This document shows positions 3,668 through 48,916 of a DNA stretch of 64,000 nt, one piece after another; the first letter of the stretch is position 1; each line of letters starts with the position of its first letter. The stretch is from Solirubrobacter phytolaccae. Lineage in GTDB: Bacteria; Actinomycetota; Thermoleophilia; Solirubrobacterales; Solirubrobacteraceae. The stretch lies in assembly GCF_027587195.1 (NCBI RefSeq), contig NZ_JAPDDP010000019.1:1-64000 (forward strand). Reading direction: 5' to 3'. Below the pieces are notes generated by a model, which was given only the letters and a program-made list of their open reading frames with translations, had not been told where the DNA came from and did no database searches. The translations under genes and the position numbers were made by a program.

Positions 3668-5071
3668 GTGCAGGAGGTGAACGCCGCACCGTCGCAGCGG
3701 CCGACCCCGGTCCTTCTCACGCTCACCGGCGCCGGTATCGCCTTCGCCCTTTCCCAGACGCTCGTCGTGCCCGCGCTGCCCGCGCTGGCGCAGGAGTTCG
3801 ACGCGTCCCCGTCGGCCGTCAGCTGGGTGCTGACCGGCTTCCTCGTCAGCGCCTCCATCGCCACGCCGATCGCCGGCAAGCTCGGCGACCTGTACGGCAA
3901 GGGCCGCGTGCTCACGTGGATCATGGCCCTGTTCGCACTCGGCGCGGTGGTCAACGCGTTCGCGCCGTCGATCGAGGTGCTGATCGCGGGCCGCGTCCTG
4001 CAGGGCGTCGCCGGGGGCGTGTTCCCGCTCGCCTTCGGCATCGTGCGCGACACGTTCCCGCGCGAGCAGGTGCCGAGCGGGATCGCGATCATCAGCGCCG
4101 TGTTCGGGATCGGCGGCGGCATCGGGCTGCCGCTCTCGGGTCTTATCGTCGACCACCTGAACCTGGACTGGCTGTTCTGGATCTCGCTGATCGCGCTGCC
4201 CGTGGGGTGGGCGGTCTGGCGGTTCGTGCCGCCTTCCCCGCCGGTCGAGAACGCGAAGGTGGACTGGCTGGGCGCGGCGATCCTGAGCGCCGGCCTGGCT
4301 GCGATCCTGCTCGGCGTCTCCCAGGCGGGCGAGTGGGGCTGGGGCTCGCCGGCGAACCTCGGCTCGGTCCTCGGCGGCCTCGCGCTGATCGGCCTGTTCG
4401 TGTGGGTCGAGACCCGTGTGCATCAGCCGCTGATCGACATGGCCGTGCTGCGCAAGCCGGCCGTGGCCTTCACGAACCTGACCGGGTTCCTGGTCGGCAT
4501 CGCGATGTTCTCGAGCTTCCTCGTGTTCCCGCAGTTCGCGCAGGCGCCGGAGTCGACGGGGTACGGGTTCGGCTTCTCTGTGACCGCCGCGGGCTTCCTG
4601 ATGCTGCCGACGGCGCTGGCGCAGCTCGCCGCCGGGGCGCCGGCGGCGAAGCTCGGTGAGCGGATCGGCTTCCGCGCCGTGCTCACCCTGGGCGCGATCC
4701 TGATCACGCTCTCGTTCCTGATCAACACCTTCGCCCACCAGCACCCGTGGGAGCTCGTGATCGGCGGCATGCTGATGGGCGTCGGGATCACGTTCGGCTT
4801 CGCGGCGATGGCGAACCTGATCGTCGACGCGGTGCCGCAGGGCGAGGTCGGCATCGCGACCGGCATCAACACGGTCATGCGGACGGTCGGCGGGTCGTTC
4901 GGCGCCGCAATCGTGACGGCGATCCTGACGAGCGGCTCCACGCCCGTGCCGAGCGAGGACCTCTACACGACGGCGTTCGCGTTCTCGGCGGCGGCGGGCG
5001 CGATCGCCGTGGCCGCTTCGCTGCTGGTCCCGCGCGGGCCGCGCCTGAAGCCCGCGCTGGCGACCGACTGA
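3668..5071 (+). CDS. MFS drug/multidrug exporter, DHA2 (14-helix) type
   Basis: A 467-aa transporter with about 14 membrane helices. Motif A is visible as [13 protein letters not shown] near residue 74, and the motif C-like stretch [15 protein letters not shown] near residue 150. Both are typical of the EmrB/QacA drug:proton antiporters. The gene starts at GTG 3668 or, in the same frame, GTG 3677; an AGGAGG at 3672-3677 lies too close to serve the second. It begins 1 bp after the MerR gene and overlaps the next gene by ATGA-like coupling, so the three form one operon. Confidence 0.85.
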
Positions 5072-6081
5072 TGGAGCTCGGCATCTACACGTTCGGTGAG
5101 CGCACGGACCCGGCGCTCACCGTCCAGCAGCGCATGGCGGATCTGGTCGAGGAGATCGTCCTGGCCGACGCGGTCGGGCTCGACGTGTTCGGCGTGGGGG
5201 AGCATCACCGGCCGGACTTCACGGTCTCCTCGCCGGCGGTCGTCCTGGCGGCGGCCGCGTCCCGGACCTCGCGCATCCGGCTGACGTCGGCCGTGTCGGT
5301 CTTGTCGAGCGACGATCCCGTGCGCGTGTTCCAGGACTTCGCGACGCTGGACCTGCTGTCGGGTGGGCGCGCCGAGATCATGGCCGGGCGCGGCTCCTTC
5401 ATCGAGTCGTTCCCGCTGTTCGGGTTCTCGCTCGACGACTACGACGCGCTGTTCGCCGAGCACCTCGACCTGCTGCTCGCGGTGCGCGACAACGAGGTCG
5501 TGACGTGGTCCGGGAAGCACCGGGCGTCGATCGAGGGCCGGGGCGTCTACCCGCGGCCGGTTCAAGATCCCTTGCCGGTCTGGGTCGCGGTCGGCGGGAC
5601 CCCGCAGTCGGTGGCGCGGGCCGGCGCGCTCGGCCTGCCGATGGCGCTGGCGATCATCGGTGGCCAGCCCGCCCGGTTCGCCCCGTTCGCCGAGCTGCAC
5701 CGGCGCGTGGCGTCCGAGTACGGGCACGCGCGGCCGCTGCTGTCGATCAACTCCCACGGCTTCATCGCGGACTCCGAGCAGGAGGCGCTGGACATTGCCT
5801 TCCCCGCGCACAAGACCGTGATGGACCAGCTCGGCCGCGAGCGCGGCTGGCCGCCTCTGACCCGCGCCGCCTTCGAGGCCTCCGCGACGCTGGAGGGCGC
5901 GAACCTGATCGGCTCACCCGAGCAGGTGATCGAGAAGATCCTCCACCAGCACTCGCTCTTCCAGCACGACCGCTTCCTGCTCCAGCTGAGCGTCGGCACG
6001 CTCCCGCACGACGCGATGATGCACGCGATCGAGCTCTACGGCCGCGTGGTCGCGCCGGCCGTGCGTGAACGCCTCGGCTAG
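5071..6081 (+). CDS. LLM-class flavin-dependent oxidoreductase
   Basis: A 336-aa bacterial-luciferase-like monooxygenase. It shows the usual opening of the family ([13 protein letters not shown]), the [10 protein letters not shown] segment near residue 48, [16 protein letters not shown] near residue 95 for flavin contact, and [16 protein letters not shown] near residue 170. Such enzymes use FMNH2 supplied by a partner reductase. The ATG at 5071 overlaps the TGA of the MFS gene by one base, so the pair is translationally coupled. The frame is open upstream inside the MFS gene, but the conserved N-terminus fixes the start. Confidence 0.88.
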
Positions 6082-6098
6082 CGGGAACCAATGCGGCC

Positions 6099-10557: not shown

Positions 10558-11481
10558 TTAAGGGGCGTCCTCGCGGATGACCTTGCGCGGGTCCTTGTCG
10601 ATGCGCTGGCCGAGGTAGCGGGGATGGCGGAGCCGGCCGTCGTTCGTCCACTCGGCGAAGCCGACCTGGGCGACCAACTCGGGCGAGACCCAGGTGACGT
10701 CGCGGAAGCGCGGTGCGTCGTAGAACGGGGCGTCGTCGCACGCCAGGGGACGCAGCAGCGCCGCCAGGCGGGACAGTTCCGCGCGGTCGAAGCCCGTGCC
10801 GACCTTGCCCGCGTAGTGCAGGCGGCCGTCGGGTTCGTAGACGCCGACGAGCAGCGCGCCGAACTCCGTCCGTGAGCCCTTGGGCGGCGTGAAGCCGCCG
10901 ACGACGAGCTCCTGGCCGTGCTCGCACTTGAACTTGAGCCAGTCCTTGGAGCGCTTGTCGGTGTAGAGGGAGTTCGCGCGCTTGGCGATCACGCCCTCCC
11001 AGCCGCTCGAGCACGCCTCGGCGAACATGGCCTCGCCCGCCTCGTTGCGGTACTCGGTCAGCCGCAGCGGGTCGTCCCAGCTCAAGGCCTCCCGGAGCAC
11101 GCCCTTGCGCTCGCGCAGCGGCACCGACCGCACGTCGTGCCCGTCCAGCCAGAGCACGTCGAACACGTAGTAGAAGAACGGCCCCGCCCGGTCCTGGAAC
11201 TTGCCGGAGGCGGACACGATCTCGCCGTCCACGGCGAACCGCGCCCGCGACTGCCCGTCGAGCGCGTCGGCGATCAACGGGTAGCGATCCCGAAGCGACA
11301 GATCGTTGCGCGAGAGCATCCGGACGGCACCGCCGTCACGGATCGCCACGCAGCGGATGCCGTCCAGCTTGCGCTCGAAGATCCAGTCGGGGTCGGAGAA
11401 GCGCGCATCCGTCAACACGGCCTTCATCGCCGCCGCGCGCACAGGTGCGGGCGTCAGGCGCGCTTCTTGATCAGCAGCCAC
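10558..11481 (-). CDS. ligD: ATP-dependent DNA ligase, LigD ligase-domain type
   Basis: A 307-aa ligase. Motif I is FERKLDGIR with the adenylated lysine at residue 38. Motif III is YYVFDVLWLDG near residue 108, motif IV is WEGVIAKR near residue 160, and motif V is KDWLKFKC near residue 180. A C-terminal OB fold follows (VVGGFTPPKG). It matches the LIG domain of LigD, which seals ends in non-homologous end joining with Ku. It overlaps the end of the phosphoesterase gene by 28 bp; an internal ATG at 11427 would avoid the overlap but trims the conserved N-terminus. No Ku or polymerase domain is present in the window. Confidence 0.88.
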   Translation of the reverse strand: MAADQEARLTPAPVRAAAMKAVLTDARFSDPDWIFERKLDGIRCVAIRDGGAVRMLSRNDLSLRDRYPLIADALDGQSRARFAVDGEIVSASGKFQDRAGPFFYYVFDVLWLDGHDVRSVPLRERKGVLREALSWDDPLRLTEYRNEAGEAMFAEACSSGWEGVIAKRANSLYTDKRSKDWLKFKCEHGQELVVGGFTPPKGSRTEFGALLVGVYEPDGRLHYAGKVGTGFDRAELSRLAALLRPLACDDAPFYDAPRFRDVTWVSPELVAQVGFAEWTNDGRLRHPRYLGQRIDKDPRKVIREDAP

Positions 11482-11829: not shown

Positions 11830-13884
11830 CTACACCACGGTGAAGCGGCCCACGAGCGCGTCGAGGTCGGCCGCCGTGCGCGAGAGCCCCGCGGCGGACG
11901 CCGCGATCTCCTGCGCGGAGGCGCCGGTCTCGTGCGTGGACGCGCTGACCTGCTCGGCCGAAGCCGAAGACGACTCGGCCACCGAGGCGACATCGTCGAC
12001 CTCGCGCTCGGCCCTCGCCGCCTCGGCCGCGATCTGCTCGACGGCCACGGTGATCTCGGCCACGCGCGCGGTCATCTCCTCGACCGTCACGCCGATCGCC
12101 TCGAACGCCGACCGCGTGGTCGCGACCGTCGCCACGCCCGCCTCGGTCTCACGCCGGCTCTCGGCGACGACCTCGACGACGTGCACGGTCTCGGTCTGGA
12201 TCTCGCCCACCAGGACGGAGATCTGGCGCGCCGCGCCCTGCGACTCCTCGGCGAGCTTGCGCACCTCCTCGGCCACGACCGCGAACCCCCGCCCGGCCTC
12301 GCCGGCCCGCGCCGCCTCGATCGCCGCGTTCAGCGCCAGCAGGTTGGTCTGCTCGGCGATCGCGGTGATCGTGTCGACGATGCCGCCGATCCGCGTCGAG
12401 CGCTCCGACAGCTCCTCGATCGCCTCGCCCACCGCGCTGGAAGAGGCGGCGATGCGGGTGATCGAGTCGCTCGCGTGCTCGGCGGTCGCGGCGCCGTCGC
12501 CGGCCGCCACGCGCACGCTCTCCGCGGCCTCGGAAGTCGCCCGCGCCGTCAGAGCGGAAGCCTCGGCCGCGCGGGCCGCTTCCTGCACCGCGGAGCGGGT
12601 GGACTCGACGAGCCGCACCTGGCGCTCGGCGCCCTGGGCCACGTCGTTGACGGCCGCCGCGATGTCGCCGACCGCGCGGCCGGTCTCCTGCGAGGACGCT
12701 GCCATCTGCTGCGACGCGGCGGAGACGGAGCCCGCGTTGGAGGACACCGTCCCGATCAGCTCGGCCAGCGAGGCGCGCATCGCGTTGTAGGCGTCGATCG
12801 AGCCGACCGTGCGCTCGCGGATCGTGTTGACGGCCACGGCGACCTGGCCGAGCTCGTCGCGCGAGATGTCGGTGATCGGCTGCGTCACCGGCGTGACCTC
12901 GACCGTGAGATCCCCCTCGGACATGCGCCGCAGCGCCGCGCCGAGGTCGGTCACGCAGTTGTCGCGCAGCGAGCTCAGGCGCTCGGAGATCTCGCGCACG
13001 CCACGCCGCGTGGAGAGGAAGAACCCGACGAACAGGAACACCGCCACCAACGCGCCGATGACGACCAGCAGCGCGATCTTCAGCCGCGCCGCCGAGAACT
13101 TCTCGGCGCGGGTGACGAGCAGCGCGTCCAGCGCGGGCGCGGCGGCCTGCTCGAGCGCACGCACGTCGCGCCCGGCGGCGAGCTTGCCGAGCGCCGGCTC
13201 GAGGTTCGCGTCGGCGGTCTCCTCGAACGAGGTCTTGAGCCCGGCGCGCATCGCCGCGATCGTCCCCGCGAGCGAGCTCTCGGCGGCCGCGAGCGCGATC
13301 CGGTCGTCCATCGTCTCCGCGACGACCTGCAGGTCGTTCACGCGCCCCGTGCCGTCGGCGATCGCCGGCAGCTTCGTGATCAGCGCGTCCATCACGTAGT
13401 AGGAGTCCAGGTCGGGATCGAGGATGAGCTTTGAGCCGTCGCCGGTCTTGATGACGAGGCCGAGCGTCGCCGACACCGCGTCCTCGTAGGCCGCGTAGGC
13501 CTCTTTGCCCGGCTTGGGCTTGGACCCGATCGCCGCGAGCACGGCCGTGCGGGTCTCTTGCCAGGTCCCGTCGACGCCGATCACGGCGCCGTCCGCGCGG
13601 TCCACCGCGGCGATCGCGGCCTCGACCGCCTTCGTGTCGACCGCGTCACCGCGGACGGCGGCCGAGCGCGCCGCGACGACGTCCAGCACGAGCTGGTTCG
13701 CGGGGATCACGAACGCCACGCCCGCCCGTTCGCTCTCGGCGAACGCGATCGTCTCGCCCTGCACGTTCCAGTACGCGTGAAGCGCGAACGCCGCGGGTGC
13801 CAGCAGCACCAACCCGACGAGGAGGAACTTGCGGGCATACGTCAGACGCGCCATGAGGGCGGCCACGGCGTTGAACGGGTTCAT
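11830..13884 (-). CDS. Methyl-accepting chemotaxis protein
   Basis: A 684-aa transducer with membrane helices at about residues 19-38 and 272-292 flanking a periplasmic-side helical sensor of about 230 residues. A HAMP region follows, then a cytoplasmic signalling domain. The kinase-contact hairpin tip [20 protein letters not shown] near residue 530 is nearly invariant in the family. The ligand is unknown. No che genes are present in the window, so it must signal to a distant array. ATG 13884 gives a short basic start before the first helix. Confidence 0.92.
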
Positions 13885-42437: not shown

Positions 42438-42470
42438 AGAAAGCGTGGAGGGATCTGGACGAATGGTGGC

Positions 42471-42500
42471 TTGACGTCACCGTCGCAGCCGGGTTACCTT
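42471..42500 (+). promoter_or_regulatory. Promoter of the secreted-protein cassette
   Basis: TTGACG (42471-42476) and TTACCT (42494-42499) are 17 bp apart; an 18-bp reading gives TACCTT. This leaves a leader of about 95 nt before the GTG at 42601, where GCAGGAGGGAGA provides a Shine-Dalgarno sequence. Confidence 0.55.
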
Positions 42501-42600
42501 CGCCGCACTCGGGGTGTGACGCGCCTCAACGGGGAGATGCGCGTCCTACGATGCTCCGCTCGGTCAACTACGGGTCCATGCAGTTCTTGCAGGAGGGAGA

Positions 42601-44112
42601 GTGGCAGAGATGCCCTCAGCAGGTCGGATAATGCGAGTTTCGATAGCGGGAGTCGTCGCAACCGCGATCCTGGGCATCTCAGCCGCCAGCGCTTCTGCGA
42701 GCGACGTGTGGATGTGGGCGTGCCATGGCCCCAACGGCCAGGCGCTCACCAACATCGCTGTGTCGCCCTACACCAGCAACGGTGGCGTGATCACGGACGG
42801 CGGCTGCAACACCGCCGGCACCGACCAGGCGCGGACGCTCACCGCGGCCGCGACGGGCAGTGTCGCCACGCTCACCGTCACGGTTCCGGACGGCCTGAAC
42901 GTCAAGCGCGTGCGCCTCGTCCGCACCGCCAACGGCCTCGGCGGCGCCGGCGCGGCGAGCTACGCCGCCACGTACGGCCCGAAGCCCAACGGCGACACGA
43001 CCTTCCCGGCCACCCCGCTCCCCGACACCGACTTCTCCGTGGCCAACCCGGAGTTCGCCGTCAGCGGCGCCGGCGAGCTCAAGCTCAGCTTGAGCTGCAG
43101 CGCGACCTGCACCGGCTCGCTCGGCGTGCAGGGCGTCGCGTTCCTCGTCGAGGACAACGACGCGCCGTTCGCGCTCGGCGTCAACCGCAACAACCCGGTC
43201 GTCACGACGCGCGACAGGGAGCTCGACAAGGACGGCAACCCGATCGTCGACGCCAAGGGCAACGCCGTCTACTACGTCAAGGAAGTCCCGATGGTCATGT
43301 CGGGCAAGGACTCGGGCGTCGGCCTCGACCGTGCCGTCGTCACGATCAACGGCGCCGGCCTCGCTTTGCCGGCCGTCGCCACGGTCTCGTTCTTCTGCGA
43401 GGACCTCTCGCCGACCGACGCGGCCTCCAACGACCGCCCGCTGGACCGCGCGAAGTGCGGCGACGTCGCCGGCAATGACGGCGACGAGACCCGGGGCTAC
43501 GACCCGCGCTTCGCCACCACCGTCAAGACGGCGTGGCGTGACCTCATCCCGGGGGCCGGTGGCAACTACACCCGCACCGTCGTCTTCTACGACGCGGCCG
43601 GCAACGCGACGACCGCGCTCGAGAACGAGCCGTTCGAGGCCGCCGTCATCTCCAAGCCGATCAGCACGCGCACGCTGAGCATCGGCACCGACCCGCTCTC
43701 GCTCAACGAGAACCCGAACGGCCCCAAGCCGCCGGGCGGTGGCGTCCAGGGCGCGCAGCGCAACCAGTGCCGCACCCCGCGCCTGTCGGTCGTGCTGAAC
43801 ACCAAGCCGGTGCGCGTCACGAAGGGCACGCCGGTCCTGAAGTACAAGAAGGCCTACAAGTTCACGGGCCGCCTGACCTGCGTGATCGACGGCAAGCGCC
43901 GCTCGGCTCCCAAGCGCACGAAGGTGTCGATCCTGAACAAGGTCGGCAAGAAGACGGTCCGCAAGCCCAACACGGCCATCCGTGACAAGGGCGCCGTCAA
44001 CCTCAAGCTCGCCTTCGTCAGCGACCGCACGGTGATCTTCCGCTACACCAACGCGGACGGTCAGAAGTCCGAGGTCAAGATCAAGGTCCGCGTCACCAAG
44101 AAGAAGAAGTAG
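42601..44112 (+). CDS. Large secreted protein with lysine-rich C-terminus
   Basis: A 503-aa exported protein. From the inner ATG (residue 11) the signal peptide runs MRVSIAGVVATAILGISAAS with cleavage after SASA. The mature part is beta-rich: a first half near residues 35-180 with Cys pairs (LSLSCSATCTGS), a middle region (DRAVVTINGAGLALPAV, FFCEDLSPTD), a Pro/Gly linker near 385 (NGPKPPGGG) and a strongly basic C-terminal domain ending in VRVTKKKK. I do not recognise the family. GTG 42601 has the better ribosome site; ATG 42610 and 42631 are alternatives. It is the first gene of a four-gene secreted cassette. Confidence 0.7.
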   Translation: MAEMPSAGRIMRVSIAGVVATAILGISAASASASDVWMWACHGPNGQALTNIAVSPYTSNGGVITDGGCNTAGTDQARTLTAAATGSVATLTVTVPDGLNVKRVRLVRTANGLGGAGAASYAATYGPKPNGDTTFPATPLPDTDFSVANPEFAVSGAGELKLSLSCSATCTGSLGVQGVAFLVEDNDAPFALGVNRNNPVVTTRDRELDKDGNPIVDAKGNAVYYVKEVPMVMSGKDSGVGLDRAVVTINGAGLALPAVATVSFFCEDLSPTDAASNDRPLDRAKCGDVAGNDGDETRGYDPRFATTVKTAWRDLIPGAGGNYTRTVVFYDAAGNATTALENEPFEAAVISKPISTRTLSIGTDPLSLNENPNGPKPPGGGVQGAQRNQCRTPRLSVVLNTKPVRVTKGTPVLKYKKAYKFTGRLTCVIDGKRRSAPKRTKVSILNKVGKKTVRKPNTAIRDKGAVNLKLAFVSDRTVIFRYTNADGQKSEVKIKVRVTKKKK

Positions 44113-44153
44113 AGGCGCCTGAGCATCGTCTCAGCGCGCGGGAGGAAGTGGGA

Positions 44154-44924
44154 ATGAAGCGAGTTACGGCGCTGGGCGCCACGGTTCTGGTGCTTGGCGC
44201 CGGCGCCGCGGCGTACGGCAACAAGGCGGCGGCCGGCGGGGCCGCCGCCGCCCAGGCGGACGGCGGCCTCTCGGTCGCGCCCGCCACGTTCGAGTCACCG
44301 GCGCGCACCGGCGCGCTGGGCACGATGAAGGTGGCCAACCGCTCCGCGGCGCCGCTCACCGTCACCGTCACGCCGCGGCAGTGGACCCAGGCCGCGACGG
44401 GCAAGGTGTCCCCGAACCGTCGCTCGACGCTCGCGGGCGTCAGCGTGAGCGAGGCGAGCTTCACGCTCGCCCCGGGCGCCGAGAAGGACGTGGCGGTCAA
44501 CCTGAACTCGGTGCCGAGCGCCGGCGCGCTCTACGGCGCGATGGAGGTCGTGGGCCTTCCGGCCGACGTCGCCACCCGCAAGGGCCTCGTGCTGGGTTAC
44601 CGCGTGGTGGGTGCCATCCGCATCCTGCCGACCGCGCCCAAGCTGGGCGTCAGCGCCGGGGCGATCAAGCCAGGCAAGGGCACCGCGCTGCTCCCGATCA
44701 AGAACACCGGCAACACGCTGGACGCCGTCAGCGGCACCGTCGCGGTGAAGGACTCGCGCGGCACCCGCAACCTGACCGTCTCGGCCGTGAAGATCCTGCC
44801 GGGCAAGACGATCAACGTCCCGCTCGGGACCAAGCTGCAGAAGGGCACCGCCACCGCCAAGGTGACGCTCAAGCAGAAGGGCAAGACCGCGCTCACCCTC
44901 ACGAAGAAGTTCACGGTCAAGTGA
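44154..44924 (+). CDS. DUF916-like secreted beta-sandwich protein
   Basis: A 256-aa exported protein: signal peptide MKRVTALGATVLVLGAGAAA, then a first beta-sandwich (LSVAPATFESPARTGALGTM; SEASFTLAPGAEKDVAVNLN; GALYGAMEVVG) and a second one (LGVSAGAIKPGKGTALLPIK; NTGNTLDAVSGTVAV). The order resembles DUF916/COG1470 proteins that partner WxL surface proteins. It is related to the protein at 45588. ATG 44154 follows GGAGG. The C-terminus is basic (LTKKFTVK). Confidence 0.68.
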   Translation: MKRVTALGATVLVLGAGAAAYGNKAAAGGAAAAQADGGLSVAPATFESPARTGALGTMKVANRSAAPLTVTVTPRQWTQAATGKVSPNRRSTLAGVSVSEASFTLAPGAEKDVAVNLNSVPSAGALYGAMEVVGLPADVATRKGLVLGYRVVGAIRILPTAPKLGVSAGAIKPGKGTALLPIKNTGNTLDAVSGTVAVKDSRGTRNLTVSAVKILPGKTINVPLGTKLQKGTATAKVTLKQKGKTALTLTKKFTVK

Positions 44925-45034
44925 TGGGCGAGTCACGTCCGATTGACGCGTCCGGCAGCTACCTTCGCTCCGAATCGCGTTCCCGCGTGTTGGGTCTGCA
45001 GGTGGTCATGAAGCGAGTTCTCAGAGGGCACGAA

Positions 45035-45541
45035 ATGAAGCTGCGTACGTTCATCGCCGCATCCGCGGTCGGAGCGATGGCGATCGCCGCGCCGATGGCC
45101 TCGGCGCAGACGGCGCCGGTCGACGGCGGCACGACGATCGGCGGAAGCGTTCCGAGCTTCCTCGAGCTGATCATCAACCAGCCCAAGGCGAACTTCGCGT
45201 CCTTCTCGTCGGCCAAGACGTACTCGACGTCCTTCGACGTGGCCGTCACGACCACCGACGGGGCGTCGCAGCTCTCGGTCGCGGACGGCGAGGTCGCGAC
45301 GGGCTCGAAGATGGGTCGGCTCGCGGCGGGCTCCAAGCTGCTCCCGCTGCCGCTCGAGGCGCGTGTCGGCAAGTCGGCCTTCGCGCCGCTGAACACGTCC
45401 GTCGAACCGCAGTTGACGAAGTGGTCGGACGCTCAGGCCCGCGGCAAGGCGACGGTCAACCTCCGCCAGCAGGTCAAGTCCAAGGTCAAGGGCAGCTACC
45501 GCAAGGTCCTGCTCGTCACGCTTTCCACGGATACGCCCTAG
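45035..45541 (+). CDS. Secreted WxL-like beta-sandwich protein
   Basis: A 168-aa exported protein. The signal peptide is MKLRTFIAASAVGAMAIAAP with cleavage after ASA. The mature part has the scheme GGSVPSFLELIINQPKANFA, then DVAVTTTDGASQLSVADGEV, ending VLLVTLSTDTP, as seen in actinobacterial proteins that resemble WxL or SipW-linked surface beta domains. The two genes either side encode DUF916-like partners, the same pairing as in WxL loci of Firmicutes. No sortase motif or membrane anchor is visible. ATG 45008 is an alternative start. Confidence 0.65.
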   Translation: MKLRTFIAASAVGAMAIAAPMASAQTAPVDGGTTIGGSVPSFLELIINQPKANFASFSSAKTYSTSFDVAVTTTDGASQLSVADGEVATGSKMGRLAAGSKLLPLPLEARVGKSAFAPLNTSVEPQLTKWSDAQARGKATVNLRQQVKSKVKGSYRKVLLVTLSTDTP

Positions 45542-45587
45542 CGCGCACTCCGGGCACGAATTCAGAGAGAACCAAGGAGATACCGAA

Positions 45588-46385
45588 GTGAAGCTCGTTA
45601 GGAGTCGGCTGGTCGCCGGCGCCCTCGGCCTGGCCGTCGCGGGAACCGCGACCGGCAGCGTCATCGCTCGTGCGGACGAGTCCGCGCCGGTGGCGAAGGC
45701 CTCGCAGCAGGGCGGCGTGTCGATCACGCCCGCTCTCGTCGAGAAGACCGCGAAGCGCGGAAACATCGGCACCATCACGATCAAGAACACCACCAAGGAC
45801 ACGATGCGGGTCACGGTCAACGTGCGCCCGTGGATCCAGAACCGCAACACGGGTTCGGTCGTCCTGAACACGAAGGCCAGCCTCGCGCCGTACGTGCGGG
45901 CGTCGCCGCAGACGTTCGACCTGGCGCCGGGTGAGCGTCGCGTGTCCTTCAACATGCGCCGCATGACCGCGTCCGGCTCGCTCTACGCCGGCTTCCAGGT
46001 CTTCGCCAAGCAGAAGAAGGCCAAGGCGCGCAACGGCATCGTCCCGCAGTGGGATCTGCGCGGGAAGATGCGCCTGAACCCGACGCGCAAGAACCCGAAC
46101 CTGCGCATCGGTGCCAGCGACGTGGCCGGGCGTGGCAACAACCGCTCGCTCATCCTCGCGGTCCGCAACACGGGCAACACGCTCGATCCGGTCGGCGGCA
46201 CCGTCTCGATCACCGGGCCGACGGCCCGCAACGCGACGATCCCGCAGGTCGGCATCGTCCCGGGCCAGGTCGTCTACCTCAAGGGCGGCGCGCTGCGCGG
46301 CATGAAGGCCGGCAACTACACCGCCACGTGGGCCGTCACCATCGGTGGCAAGCGCTTCAACGTCAAGCGCACGTTCAAGCTGTAA
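45588..46385 (+). CDS. DUF916-like secreted beta-sandwich protein, second copy
   Basis: A 265-aa exported protein: signal peptide VKLVRSRLVAGALGLAVAGT, then VSITPALVEKTAKRGNIGTI, PQTFDLAPGERRVSFNMRRM, SGSLYAGFQVFAK and NTGNTLDPVGGTVSI. The order of elements is the same as in the protein at 44154, so they arose by duplication, but the sequences are far apart. The GTG at 45588 follows AAGGAGA. It is followed by BlaI and M56 genes within 15 bp. Confidence 0.68.
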   Translation: MKLVRSRLVAGALGLAVAGTATGSVIARADESAPVAKASQQGGVSITPALVEKTAKRGNIGTITIKNTTKDTMRVTVNVRPWIQNRNTGSVVLNTKASLAPYVRASPQTFDLAPGERRVSFNMRRMTASGSLYAGFQVFAKQKKAKARNGIVPQWDLRGKMRLNPTRKNPNLRIGASDVAGRGNNRSLILAVRNTGNTLDPVGGTVSITGPTARNATIPQVGIVPGQVVYLKGGALRGMKAGNYTATWAVTIGGKRFNVKRTFKL

Positions 46386-46400
46386 GCAGGAGCTGAAGGC

Positions 46401-46778
46401 ATGGCCACGCCCCCACCTCTGCACGAGCTCGAGTCCGAGATCATGGAGGAGATGTGGGGGCGTGCCGAGGCCACCGTCCGCGACGTGCAGTCAGCCCTGA
46501 ACGCGCGCAGCGAGAAGACGCGCGCGTACACGACGCTGCTGACGGTGATGACGCGGCTGGACGGCAAGGGTCTGCTCGTCCGCCGTCGCGAAGGCCGCGT
46601 CGACGTCTATTCGGCGGCGATCCCGCGTGACGAGTACTTCGCGGCCCGCGCGGAAGCGTCGGTCGAGGCGCTCGTCGAGGACTTCGGGGACCTGGCGCTG
46701 GCGCACTTCGCCCGTCACATCCGCGGCCTCGATCCGCAGCGGTTGGAGACGCTGCGCCGCATCGCCGAAAGTGACTGA
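46401..46778 (+). CDS. BlaI/MecI/CopY family repressor
   Basis: A 125-aa winged-helix repressor: LHELESEIMEEMWGRAEATV, then RDVQSALNARSEKTRAYTTL and VMTRLDGKGLLVRRREGRVD. The C-terminal part is a dimerisation helix pair. BlaI proteins are inactivated by proteolysis when a membrane M56 protease senses its signal, and the M56 gene lies 5 bp downstream. The gene before it is 15 bp away, so the repressor may be in the same operon that it controls. Confidence 0.9.
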   Translation: MATPPPLHELESEIMEEMWGRAEATVRDVQSALNARSEKTRAYTTLLTVMTRLDGKGLLVRRREGRVDVYSAAIPRDEYFAARAEASVEALVEDFGDLALAHFARHIRGLDPQRLETLRRIAESD

Positions 46779-46783
46779 GTGAA

Positions 46784-47677
46784 GTGACCGAGTCCCGCGG
46801 GCTGCGGCGGGCCGAGTTCGCGGTTGCCGCGTTCGGGGTCACGGCGTTCCTGCTCGCGCTGCTGTACGTGATCGACGCCGTCCGCTTCCACAGCGGCGCG
46901 GTGCTGCATCCGCTCACCGAGGACATCCCCAACGGTGAGCTGCACATCGGCGAGCTCGTGCTGATGGCGCTGCTGATCTTCGACGGGCTCGCGTTCGGGC
47001 GCGCCGCGCGCTCGCTGCGTCGCGGTGTCGCGGCGCACCGGCGGCTGTCGGCCGAGCTGCCGGTCGTAGGCACGCGGGTGATCGGGGGACGCGAGGTGGC
47101 GGTCGTCCCGGGCTCGGCACCGCGCGCGTTCTGCTCCGGCCTCGCGCGGCCGCGGGTCTACGTCTCCCAAGGCGCGCTGGCGCGGCTGGGGGAGCGCGAG
47201 CTCGCCGCGGTCGTCGCGCATGAGGCGCATCACGCCGACCGTCGCGACCCGCTGCGCCTGCTGGTGGCGCGCGCGATCGGCGACGCCTACTCGCTGCGCA
47301 CGCTCCCGCGGCGCGAGCAGGCCTTGTCAGAGCTGTCGGCCGACGCCGCGGCGGTCCGCCGGAGCGGGGCCGCACCGCTCGCGTCGGCGCTGCTGGCGTT
47401 CCCGGATGACGTCGCGCCGGAGCGCGTGGACCGGCTCGCCGGCGCCAAGCCGGTCGGCCAGGTCTCCAACGCGATGGTGGTCGCCGCCGGGCTCGTGATG
47501 GCGGTGCTCGTCGTGGCGATCGTGGCCGAGCTGTTCGTGCCCGGCCACCCGGCCTTCTGCCTGCCGCTGGCGTCCGCGCCCGGGTGGATCCTGGTCGCGG
47601 TCACCGCGCGCGTCGCGGTGCTGGGGCCCGCGTGGCTCGGCTGGCGCCGAGCCGCCGCGTTCCTCAGACCCGCCTAG
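46784..47677 (+). CDS. M56 (BlaR1-like) membrane metalloprotease without sensor domain
   Basis: A 297-aa integral protein with helices at about residues 12-31, 55-72, 228-250 and 255-280. The zinc site is HEAHH (His146, Glu147, His150), with ELSADAAAVRRSG near residue 184 as the third-ligand region. Unlike BlaR1 it lacks the extracellular penicillin-binding sensor. It most likely cleaves the BlaI-type repressor encoded just upstream when the envelope gives a signal. Confidence 0.87.
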   Translation: MTESRGLRRAEFAVAAFGVTAFLLALLYVIDAVRFHSGAVLHPLTEDIPNGELHIGELVLMALLIFDGLAFGRAARSLRRGVAAHRRLSAELPVVGTRVIGGREVAVVPGSAPRAFCSGLARPRVYVSQGALARLGERELAAVVAHEAHHADRRDPLRLLVARAIGDAYSLRTLPRREQALSELSADAAAVRRSGAAPLASALLAFPDDVAPERVDRLAGAKPVGQVSNAMVVAAGLVMAVLVVAIVAELFVPGHPAFCLPLASAPGWILVAVTARVAVLGPAWLGWRRAAAFLRPA

Positions 47678-47746: not shown

Positions 47747-48916
47747 CTAGCCCTTCTTCTTCTTTTCGCAGTCCTTGGCGACGGTGACGCGCTTGGCGTT
47801 GCCCTTGAAGCGCGAGACGATCACGGTGTCATTGCCGGCGCCGCAGGACACGCGCGCCTTGCCGCTGGCGGTGATCGCGTAGATGGTGTCGTCGTCGGGG
47901 CCGGCGTCGACGATCGTGTTCTTGCCGGCGATCCGGATGTTGTCGGCGCCGTTGCCGCCGAAGATCGTCGAGATCGTGCCGTTGCCCTGCAGGAAGTCGT
48001 TGCCGTCGCCGCCGAGGATGCGGTTCTTGCCGCGACCGCCGTAGACGGTGTCGTCGCCCGAGCCCGCGTCGATCAGGTCGCTCTGCTTGCCGGCCTTGCC
48101 GGTGTGGCGGGCGTCGCCCCACAGGATGTCGTTGCCGGCGTGCCCGTGGAGGGTGTTCGAGCCGCCCTGGCCGTTGAGGCGGTCGTTGCGGTCCGTGCCG
48201 TTCTTGGTGCCGTTGCCGGACCAGGTGATGCCGCGCGTGGGGTCACGCTCGGCGGCCAGGTCGATCACGTTCTCGCAGTTCGGCTGGACGGCGAGCAGCT
48301 TGCGGTTCGTCCGGCCCTTCGGCGCGGGCGTGTTGTAGACGGTGTCGTTGCCGTCGCCGCAGTCGATGCTCTTGACCGCGCTCGGCGGGTCCGAGTTGAG
48401 GTGGATGATGTCGTCGCCGGGGCCGGCGTCGATCCGGTCCGGGCCGGTGTCGGAGAAGATCGTGTCGTTGCCGTTGCCGCCGTTGATGTCGTCGCCGCCG
48501 CTGCCGCCGTCGAGGGTGTCGTTGCCGTCCCCGCCGTTGAGCACGTCGGGCGCCTCGTTGCCTTCGAGGTTGTCGTCGCCGGGGCCGCCGAGCAGCGTGT
48601 CGTGGCCGAAGCCGCCGAGGCCCTGGTCGTTCCCGTCCTCGCCGATCAGGCGGTCGTCGCCCGAGCCACCGTTCATGTTGTCGTTGCCGAAGCCGCCGTA
48701 GACCTCGTCGGGGCCGGTGTCGCCGGTCAAGATGTCGTCGCTTCCGAGGCCACGGATCGTGTCACGACCACCGAGGCCGTTGATCACATCTGGGCCTTCC
48801 GTCCCGGTGAGTCGCTCTGCGGCGCCGGAGCCGACGATGTTCTTTGCGAACGCAGTCGTGGCGAACACGAGCGCTCCAGCGAGTATCAGGGCCATCAAGG
48901 TACGGAATTTGGACAC
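47747..48916 (-). CDS. Secreted RTX (hemolysin-type calcium-binding repeat) protein
   Basis: A 389-aa exported protein: signal peptide MSKFRTLMALILAGALVFAT, then about 25 nonapeptide repeats of the form GGxGxDxLx (GGDGNDTLDGGSGGDDINGG; GGNGNDTIF; GSGDDTVYGGRGKN). These fold into calcium-binding parallel beta-rolls outside the cell. A Cys-containing break (IDCGDGNDTVY; QPNCENVIDL) splits the repeats. The tail CEKKKKG is basic. The export route is probably Sec, since the signal peptide is at the N-terminus, unlike type I RTX toxins. GTG 48916 follows an AAAGGA. Confidence 0.9.
   Translation of the reverse strand: MSKFRTLMALILAGALVFATTAFAKNIVGSGAAERLTGTEGPDVINGLGGRDTIRGLGSDDILTGDTGPDEVYGGFGNDNMNGGSGDDRLIGEDGNDQGLGGFGHDTLLGGPGDDNLEGNEAPDVLNGGDGNDTLDGGSGGDDINGGNGNDTIFSDTGPDRIDAGPGDDIIHLNSDPPSAVKSIDCGDGNDTVYNTPAPKGRTNRKLLAVQPNCENVIDLAAERDPTRGITWSGNGTKNGTDRNDRLNGQGGSNTLHGHAGNDILWGDARHTGKAGKQSDLIDAGSGDDTVYGGRGKNRILGGDGNDFLQGNGTISTIFGGNGADNIRIAGKNTIVDAGPDDDTIYAITASGKARVSCGAGNDTVIVSRFKGNAKRVTVAKDCEKKKKG

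Follow-up and report, generated by a model that had tools for sequence, protein, structure and literature searches.

What do four neighbouring secreted proteins do when the genes that follow them encode a BlaI-type repressor and a membrane protease? This question is raised by a six-gene locus, A-B-C-D-E-F, which lies on the + strand at 42601-47677 of the window, by which we mean the whole 64,000-nucleotide stretch of Solirubrobacter phytolaccae DNA that was analysed (contig NZ_JAPDDP010000019.1, positions 1 to 64,000). A first-pass annotation, made from the sequence of the window, had described the locus as four secreted proteins followed by a BlaI repressor and an M56 protease. All six open reading frames are found at those positions, with gaps of 15 bp between D and E and 5 bp between E and F. 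The N-termini of A, B, C and D are signal-peptide-like, no strong membrane segment occurs further on, and none of the four proteins has an above-cut-off match in Pfam or NCBIfam. We show below that C is the stand-alone form of a domain found at the end of about 145 other proteins encoded in the genome, and that B and D are secreted homologues of WxLIP proteins. With a probability of about 0.62, we read the locus as encoding the central components of a docking platform at the cell surface, in which B and D would receive C-terminal domains and hold the proteins that carry them at the wall.

C and a domain that ends about 145 other proteins

Gene C (45035-45541, + strand) encodes a protein of 168 amino acids (aa), a stand-alone WxL-like domain. 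A profile built from C together with the domains of its neighbours, run against the S. phytolaccae genome, scored 150 candidates and gave 150 rows. After split matches were merged, these correspond to at least about 145 loci with E <1e-4, a number that is a lower bound. This genome-wide recurrence was absent from the first-pass annotation.

The place of the domain within its proteins is strict. In all 51 distinct copies that were sampled, copies from other genomes included, there were zero residues after the domain. Its end has the consensus Y-x-K-T-L-T-F-T-L-S-T-T-T-P-COOH, with the tyrosine at position -14 present in 50 of the 51 copies, the leucine at -6 in 47, and the proline at -1 in every one. 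The proteins that end in this domain, here called clients, are mostly secreted enzymes, many of them hydrolases, and include a GH10 glycosidase, an alkaline phosphatase, a ThuA-containing protein, M6 and M14 peptidases, and a nucleoside hydrolase. A crude signal-peptide test was positive for 26 of 35 clients, compared with 30 of the 106 other genes in the stretches examined. No model of the domain exists in Pfam or NCBIfam, and in the literature searched we found no description of this Solirubrobacter C-terminal domain. A second stand-alone copy, of 164 aa, is present on another contig of the genome (C66; L093:3856-4350), and single relatives occur in other Solirubrobacter genomes.

B and D are WxLIP-type homologues

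Genes B (44154-44924, + strand, 256 aa) and D (45588-46385, + strand, 265 aa) are paralogues with 34% identity. Both proteins had been called DUF916-like in the first-pass annotation, and this assignment is borne out by profile and by fold. Using hhalign, a B/D profile matched a DUF916-DUF3324 alignment with a probability of 98.3% (E 1.9e-14) over 212 columns that span both domains; the comparison set was drawn from Lactiplantibacillus, Paenibacillus, and actinobacteria, and no unrelated pair exceeded 1.2%. AlphaFold2 gave a model of D that can be trusted from residue 42 onwards, with a predicted local distance difference test score (pLDDT) >90 over most of residues 42-265. Its best match among solved structures was the Enterococcus faecium WxLIP chain 9i25_C (Z 15.4, 216 residues, root-mean-square deviation 4.7), which comes from a solved complex of WxLIP with a long WxL protein (PDB 9i25). 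The second was WxLIP 9i1y_A (Z 15.1), followed by the chaperone-usher chaperones FimC, Caf1M, and PapD at Z 12-13.5. We conclude that B and D are secreted WxLIP-type homologues with the DUF916-DUF3324 layout.

Like canonical WxLIP (PF06030 and PF11797; PDB 9i1y and 9i25), B and D are secreted and consist of two tandem immunoglobulin (Ig)-like domains in the same order, PGBD and then HBD. Also as in WxLIP, the gene stands beside that of a small WxL-type protein: a gene for the WxL-like domain adjoins B/D in Solirubrobacter genomes and lies near B/D relatives in other genera. The proteins differ from canonical WxLIP in that they are without a C-terminal membrane helix, fall below the Pfam cut-off (no PF06030 match above cut-off was found in B, in D, or elsewhere in the genome), and show no clear NQIDKxxxYFDLK segment. 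The helix is present in more distant WxLIP-like relatives in two other genomes, G025 and G043 (L155_8 and L156_14). A further difference is that two copies are found in one operon and two more, as solo paralogues, elsewhere in the genome, on contigs C119 and C137. In a tree of the family, B and D each pair with a different solo paralogue, and the majority of these splits predate the radiation of the genus. Viral contigs searched with D yielded no relatives.

The solo D paralogue on contig C119 (L005, 9369-10121) lies ~3.3 kb from the gene for a 616-aa secreted client (4241-6091). The two genes are also kept near each other in S. taibaiensis, S. deserti, and Solirubrobacter sp. CPCC 204708.

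Relation of the C domain to WxL domains and pilins

The first-pass annotation had described C as a WxL-like protein. The distal WxL motif has been published as YXXX(L/I/V)TWXLXXXP (PMC5817068), and most of it is recognizable in the C domain. The pattern Y-x3-[LIV]-T-x-x-L is present in 36 of 51 copies, with the tryptophan of the motif replaced by phenylalanine and the proline placed one residue later, at the very C-terminus; a pattern with the terminal proline at the published spacing matched none of the 51. None of the 51 copies has the tryptophan of the first motif, whose position holds A, S, T, or V, and that of the second motif is replaced by F, L, V, or A in the sampled copies. Five small relatives from Solirubrobacterales have a conserved W-T-L at the first motif and are linked to the C domain by a profile match of 98.9%. 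These small W-T-L proteins themselves have no significant profile link to Firmicute WxL, and those of G025 and G043 adjoin the WxLIP-like genes whose products have a C-terminal membrane helix.

C thus shares with WxL (PF13731) a C-terminal beta domain, most of the distal motif, the occurrence of small and large forms in one cluster, and a first W-x-L that is retained in basal relatives. It differs in the loss of both tryptophans, the position of the terminal proline, the lack of a significant profile match (C has no match to PF13731), and the presence of ~145 copies in a genome. The Foldseek listing for the model of C consists mostly of chaperone-usher pilins, and the solved long WxL chain of 9i25 is not among the 50 matches listed; we take the pilin-like fold match as suggestive only. 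Because the tryptophans are lost, the direct comparison with WxL profiles is not significant, and the fold match is suggestive only, we describe the domain as WxL-like rather than assign it to the WxL family. The first-pass description therefore stands as far as the distal motif and the W-x-L of the basal relatives are concerned, and falls short as to the tryptophans and the family profile.

Chaperone-usher systems (FimC/FimF, Caf1M/Caf1, CsuC/CsuA) offer a second comparison. The predicted fold of D is chaperone-like and that of C is pilin-like, in line with strand complementation. The likeness is one of fold, and FimC, Caf1M, and PapD rank below WxLIP for D. Chaperone-usher systems differ in that no sequence match to them was found and in that the host here is presumed to be monoderm. 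There is no usher among the six genes of the locus, and no genome-wide usher search was made.

In the basal genomes, the small W-T-L genes and the WxLIP-like genes lie within a conserved gene set (L154:5017-11652, L155:7454-12827, and L042:995-6677), which includes genes for an SsrA-binding-protein-like protein (~159 aa) and an FtsX-like permease, both named by reading of their sequences only.

Gene order and co-occurrence in other genomes

The order A-B-C-D-BlaI-M56 is kept in 7 of the 7 Solirubrobacter genomes examined. Moreover, the order extends beyond the locus to moxR-VWA-A-B-C-D-E-F and then a gene with RTX repeats in reverse orientation. This wider order recurs across Solirubrobacter genomes, and because it does, the arrangement is not due to chance. 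Named organisms with a related locus are S. taibaiensis, S. deserti, S. soli, Solirubrobacter sp. CPCC 204708, and Ca. S. pratensis. In S. soli, D and E are separated by an inserted opposite-strand gene for an 813-aa GGDEF/EAL protein; Ca. S. pratensis has an additional A-type gene, shorter than the first, between B and C. The S. soli insert (L066, between the end of D at 10801 and E, which starts at 13304) reads as PAS-GGDEF-EAL, judged from the sequence alone. In the window, the gene with RTX-like glycine/aspartate-rich repeats occupies 47747-48916; it is reversed and lies directly 3' of F in the Solirubrobacter genomes examined.

Among 61 genomes of relatives, the C domain was found in seven Solirubrobacter genomes, with at least 65 copies each, and in G014, G023, and G034. 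Relatives of D were found in the same ten genomes and in G009. When an enlarged profile was run class-wide against 349 genomes, the domain turned up in 3 Solirubrobacter genomes and 8 others. Sequences of G014, G023, and G034 were part of the search profile, and those of the other five (G466, G520, G012, G025, and G043) were not. A B/D relative was present in all eight outside genomes, and in all eight a copy of the domain lay within ~2 kb of it. As controls, we searched genomes without the domain using the B/D profile: five (G314, G384, G035, G016, and G036) had no B/D relative, and G013, the last of the six, showed no more than a marginal match (E 0.005). Sampling 396 genomes across the phylum revealed the domain in Solirubrobacteraceae alone; the class-wide search adds one domain-bearing genome from another family of Solirubrobacterales.

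The clusters of G466 and G520 hold A, a small C, and a WxLIP gene in that order, and a full-length client gene lies inside the G466 cluster. The client portion in G014 and G023 is an HtaA-like (heme) domain, and a FecCD-type ABC importer lies next to the cluster of G023. There (L037:1342-9480; also L072), genes for HtaA-domain proteins, one of them with a C-terminal WxL-like domain, lie between the importer and the relatives of A, C, and D, a hint of a surface module adapted to heme capture.

A probable docking platform for secreted enzymes

The suggestion of the first-pass annotation that the locus specifies an envelope structure remains the best reading. We favour a docking platform in particular because the C domain also ends ~145 other proteins, which are mostly secreted enzymes. 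Most likely, B and D, once secreted, would take up the C-terminal domains of the clients by beta-strand complementation. This would occur at the free C-terminal strand, as in the presumed pairing of WxLIP with WxL and in the pairing of pilus chaperones with pilins; in a published AlphaFold2 model, a strand of WxLIP completes the WxL sandwich (PMC10599100). B and D would hold the client enzymes at the peptidoglycan or cell wall, with C, the small, stand-alone form of the WxL-like domain, as the small partner, and with A as a dedicated accessory surface protein of the platform. The BlaI/M56 pair would probably adjust the operon's expression in response to an envelope signal.

Several results weigh against this reading. 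B and D have no hydrophobic segment after the signal peptide, so the canonical C-terminal membrane helix of WxLIP is absent. Neither WxL tryptophan is found in C or its domain, direct profile comparisons of the domain with Firmicute and actinobacterial WxL sets were not significant (0.6-13%), and the fold match of the C model is modest (Z up to 8.0, graded "common" by the tool). As for the co-occurrence, three of the eight outside genomes (G014, G023, and G034) contributed to the search profile, and G012 has only a weak B/D-family match (E 4.2e-4 in the genome search and 1.6e-8 with the called protein). Furthermore, most clients are known from one genus, and the co-occurrence thus rests on few independent lineages.

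A bolder version of docking, which we advance tentatively, would extend it to the whole genome. The WxLIP proteins of this locus and the two solo paralogues would act like donor-strand chaperones and capture the last strand of the C-terminal domain on ~145 secreted proteins; jointly with this, the domain would be an incomplete Ig domain and the stand-alone C would be a platform or a cap. If true, such tagging and docking would be a Gram-positive counterpart of the chaperone-usher pathway or of type IX C-terminal sorting.

The domain might instead be an anchor that binds peptidoglycan or another glycan independently of B and D, which would then form with C a separate local complex that happens to share the domain. 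WxL domains have been reported to bind peptidoglycan by themselves (PMC9772566, PMC5817068), and clients outnumber B/D genes by ~35 to 1. We nevertheless consider this unlikely, since the class-wide search found the domain only in genomes with a B/D relative, and the strict C-terminal place and conserved terminal strand are more in keeping with a partner that recognizes the domain than with simple binding to sugars.

That same strict C-terminal place and conserved end would also suit a signal for export or folding, a tag that is later removed or that secretion requires, as in type IX secretion, with B and D serving as export chaperones rather than anchors. The resemblance of the B/D fold to the export chaperones of pilus systems and the missing membrane helix are consistent with such a role. 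However, the clients have ordinary signal-peptide-like N-termini, and a secreted stand-alone domain without cargo, which is what C is, would be hard to explain as an export tag, so that we regard a role in export as improbable.

Gene A and its upstream region

Gene A (42601-44112, + strand) is present as a single copy in the genome. It encodes a secreted protein of 503 aa with an N-terminal W-x-CHGP-x-G motif region and a cysteine-containing C-terminal domain, and a relative of A was found alongside relatives of B/D and C in five other genomes. The region at 42445-42606 (+ strand), which comprises the upstream sequence and leader of A and occurs once in the genome, is a candidate regulatory region with ~85% column identity in five species. 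In most of these species the region is better conserved than protein A, whose identity is 35-46% in three of them and 74% in G002. Cross-species alignment yielded a predicted promoter of the locus at 42471-42500 (+ strand), composed of TTGACG (42471-42476), an 18-bp spacer, and TACCTT (42495-42500); the TTGAC and TAC of this TTGAC-N18-TAC arrangement are conserved in all six aligned loci. An RNA switch in the leader was considered and dropped because the leader had no match in Rfam and no folding excess (z-scores of -0.4 to 0.7). A search for a BlaI operator upstream of A found no inverted repeat with arms of at least 5 bp that was common to even two species.

The BlaI/M56 pair

Gene E (46401-46778, + strand) encodes a 125-aa repressor of the BlaI/Penicillinase_R family (PF03965, E 2.4e-20). 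The product of gene F (46784-47677, + strand) is a 297-aa M56/M48-type membrane zinc protease with HEAHH at residue 146 and membrane segments on either side of the protease core; in Pfam, it scores 31.7 bits with M48, above the cut-off, and 19.9 bits with M56, below the cut-off. As in the BlaI/MecI-BlaR1 (M56) regulators, a Penicillinase_R family repressor stands beside a membrane zinc protease with HExxH. The pair differs from those regulators in having neither an extracellular sensor domain, as found in BlaR1, nor a beta-lactamase, and in being located beside the module only in Solirubrobacter. The first-pass annotation had already remarked on the missing sensor domain, and indeed F stops shortly after the last membrane segments.

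In Solirubrobacter genomes, BlaI/M56 lies 3' of A-D and in most of them nearly abuts D. BLAST found no BlaI or M56 homologues in the non-Solirubrobacter clusters (G014, G023, G034, G466, G520, G025, G043, and G012), and M56 homologues occur in many genomes that are without the A/C/D module. The pair looks like a lineage-specific regulator of Solirubrobacter, and its position beside D in one genus suggests that the operon may be regulated by an envelope signal. BlaI/M56 control as a constituent part of the system, which the first-pass annotation had proposed, is not supported, and because the pair adjoins the module only in Solirubrobacter, the sensing role proposed for the secreted proteins is weak. 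The model in which these proteins sense a signal and trigger cleavage of BlaI by M56 draws on the position of the pair 3' of the four genes and on a protease without its own sensor, but it is improbable given a module that does without BlaI/M56 in eight other genomes, M56 homologues that are common without the module, an opposite-strand gene that splits the pair from D in S. soli, and no conserved palindrome.

What docking would mean for Solirubrobacter

Nearly all described WxL clusters come from Lactobacillales and Bacillales (PMC10599100). Other actinobacteria, too, have DUF916 proteins. With the present findings, the WxL/WxLIP concept, known from gut Firmicutes, reaches a lineage of soil actinobacteria, and a domain that would be carried by ~2% of genes, if the genome has ~7,000 genes (an estimate from 7.7 Mb), gains a testable partner. 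In Solirubrobacter, the system looks like a major route by which secreted enzymes are placed on the cell. If docking by B and D is confirmed, one deletion would alter the surface location of >100 proteins, and the C-terminal domain could serve as an anchoring tag.

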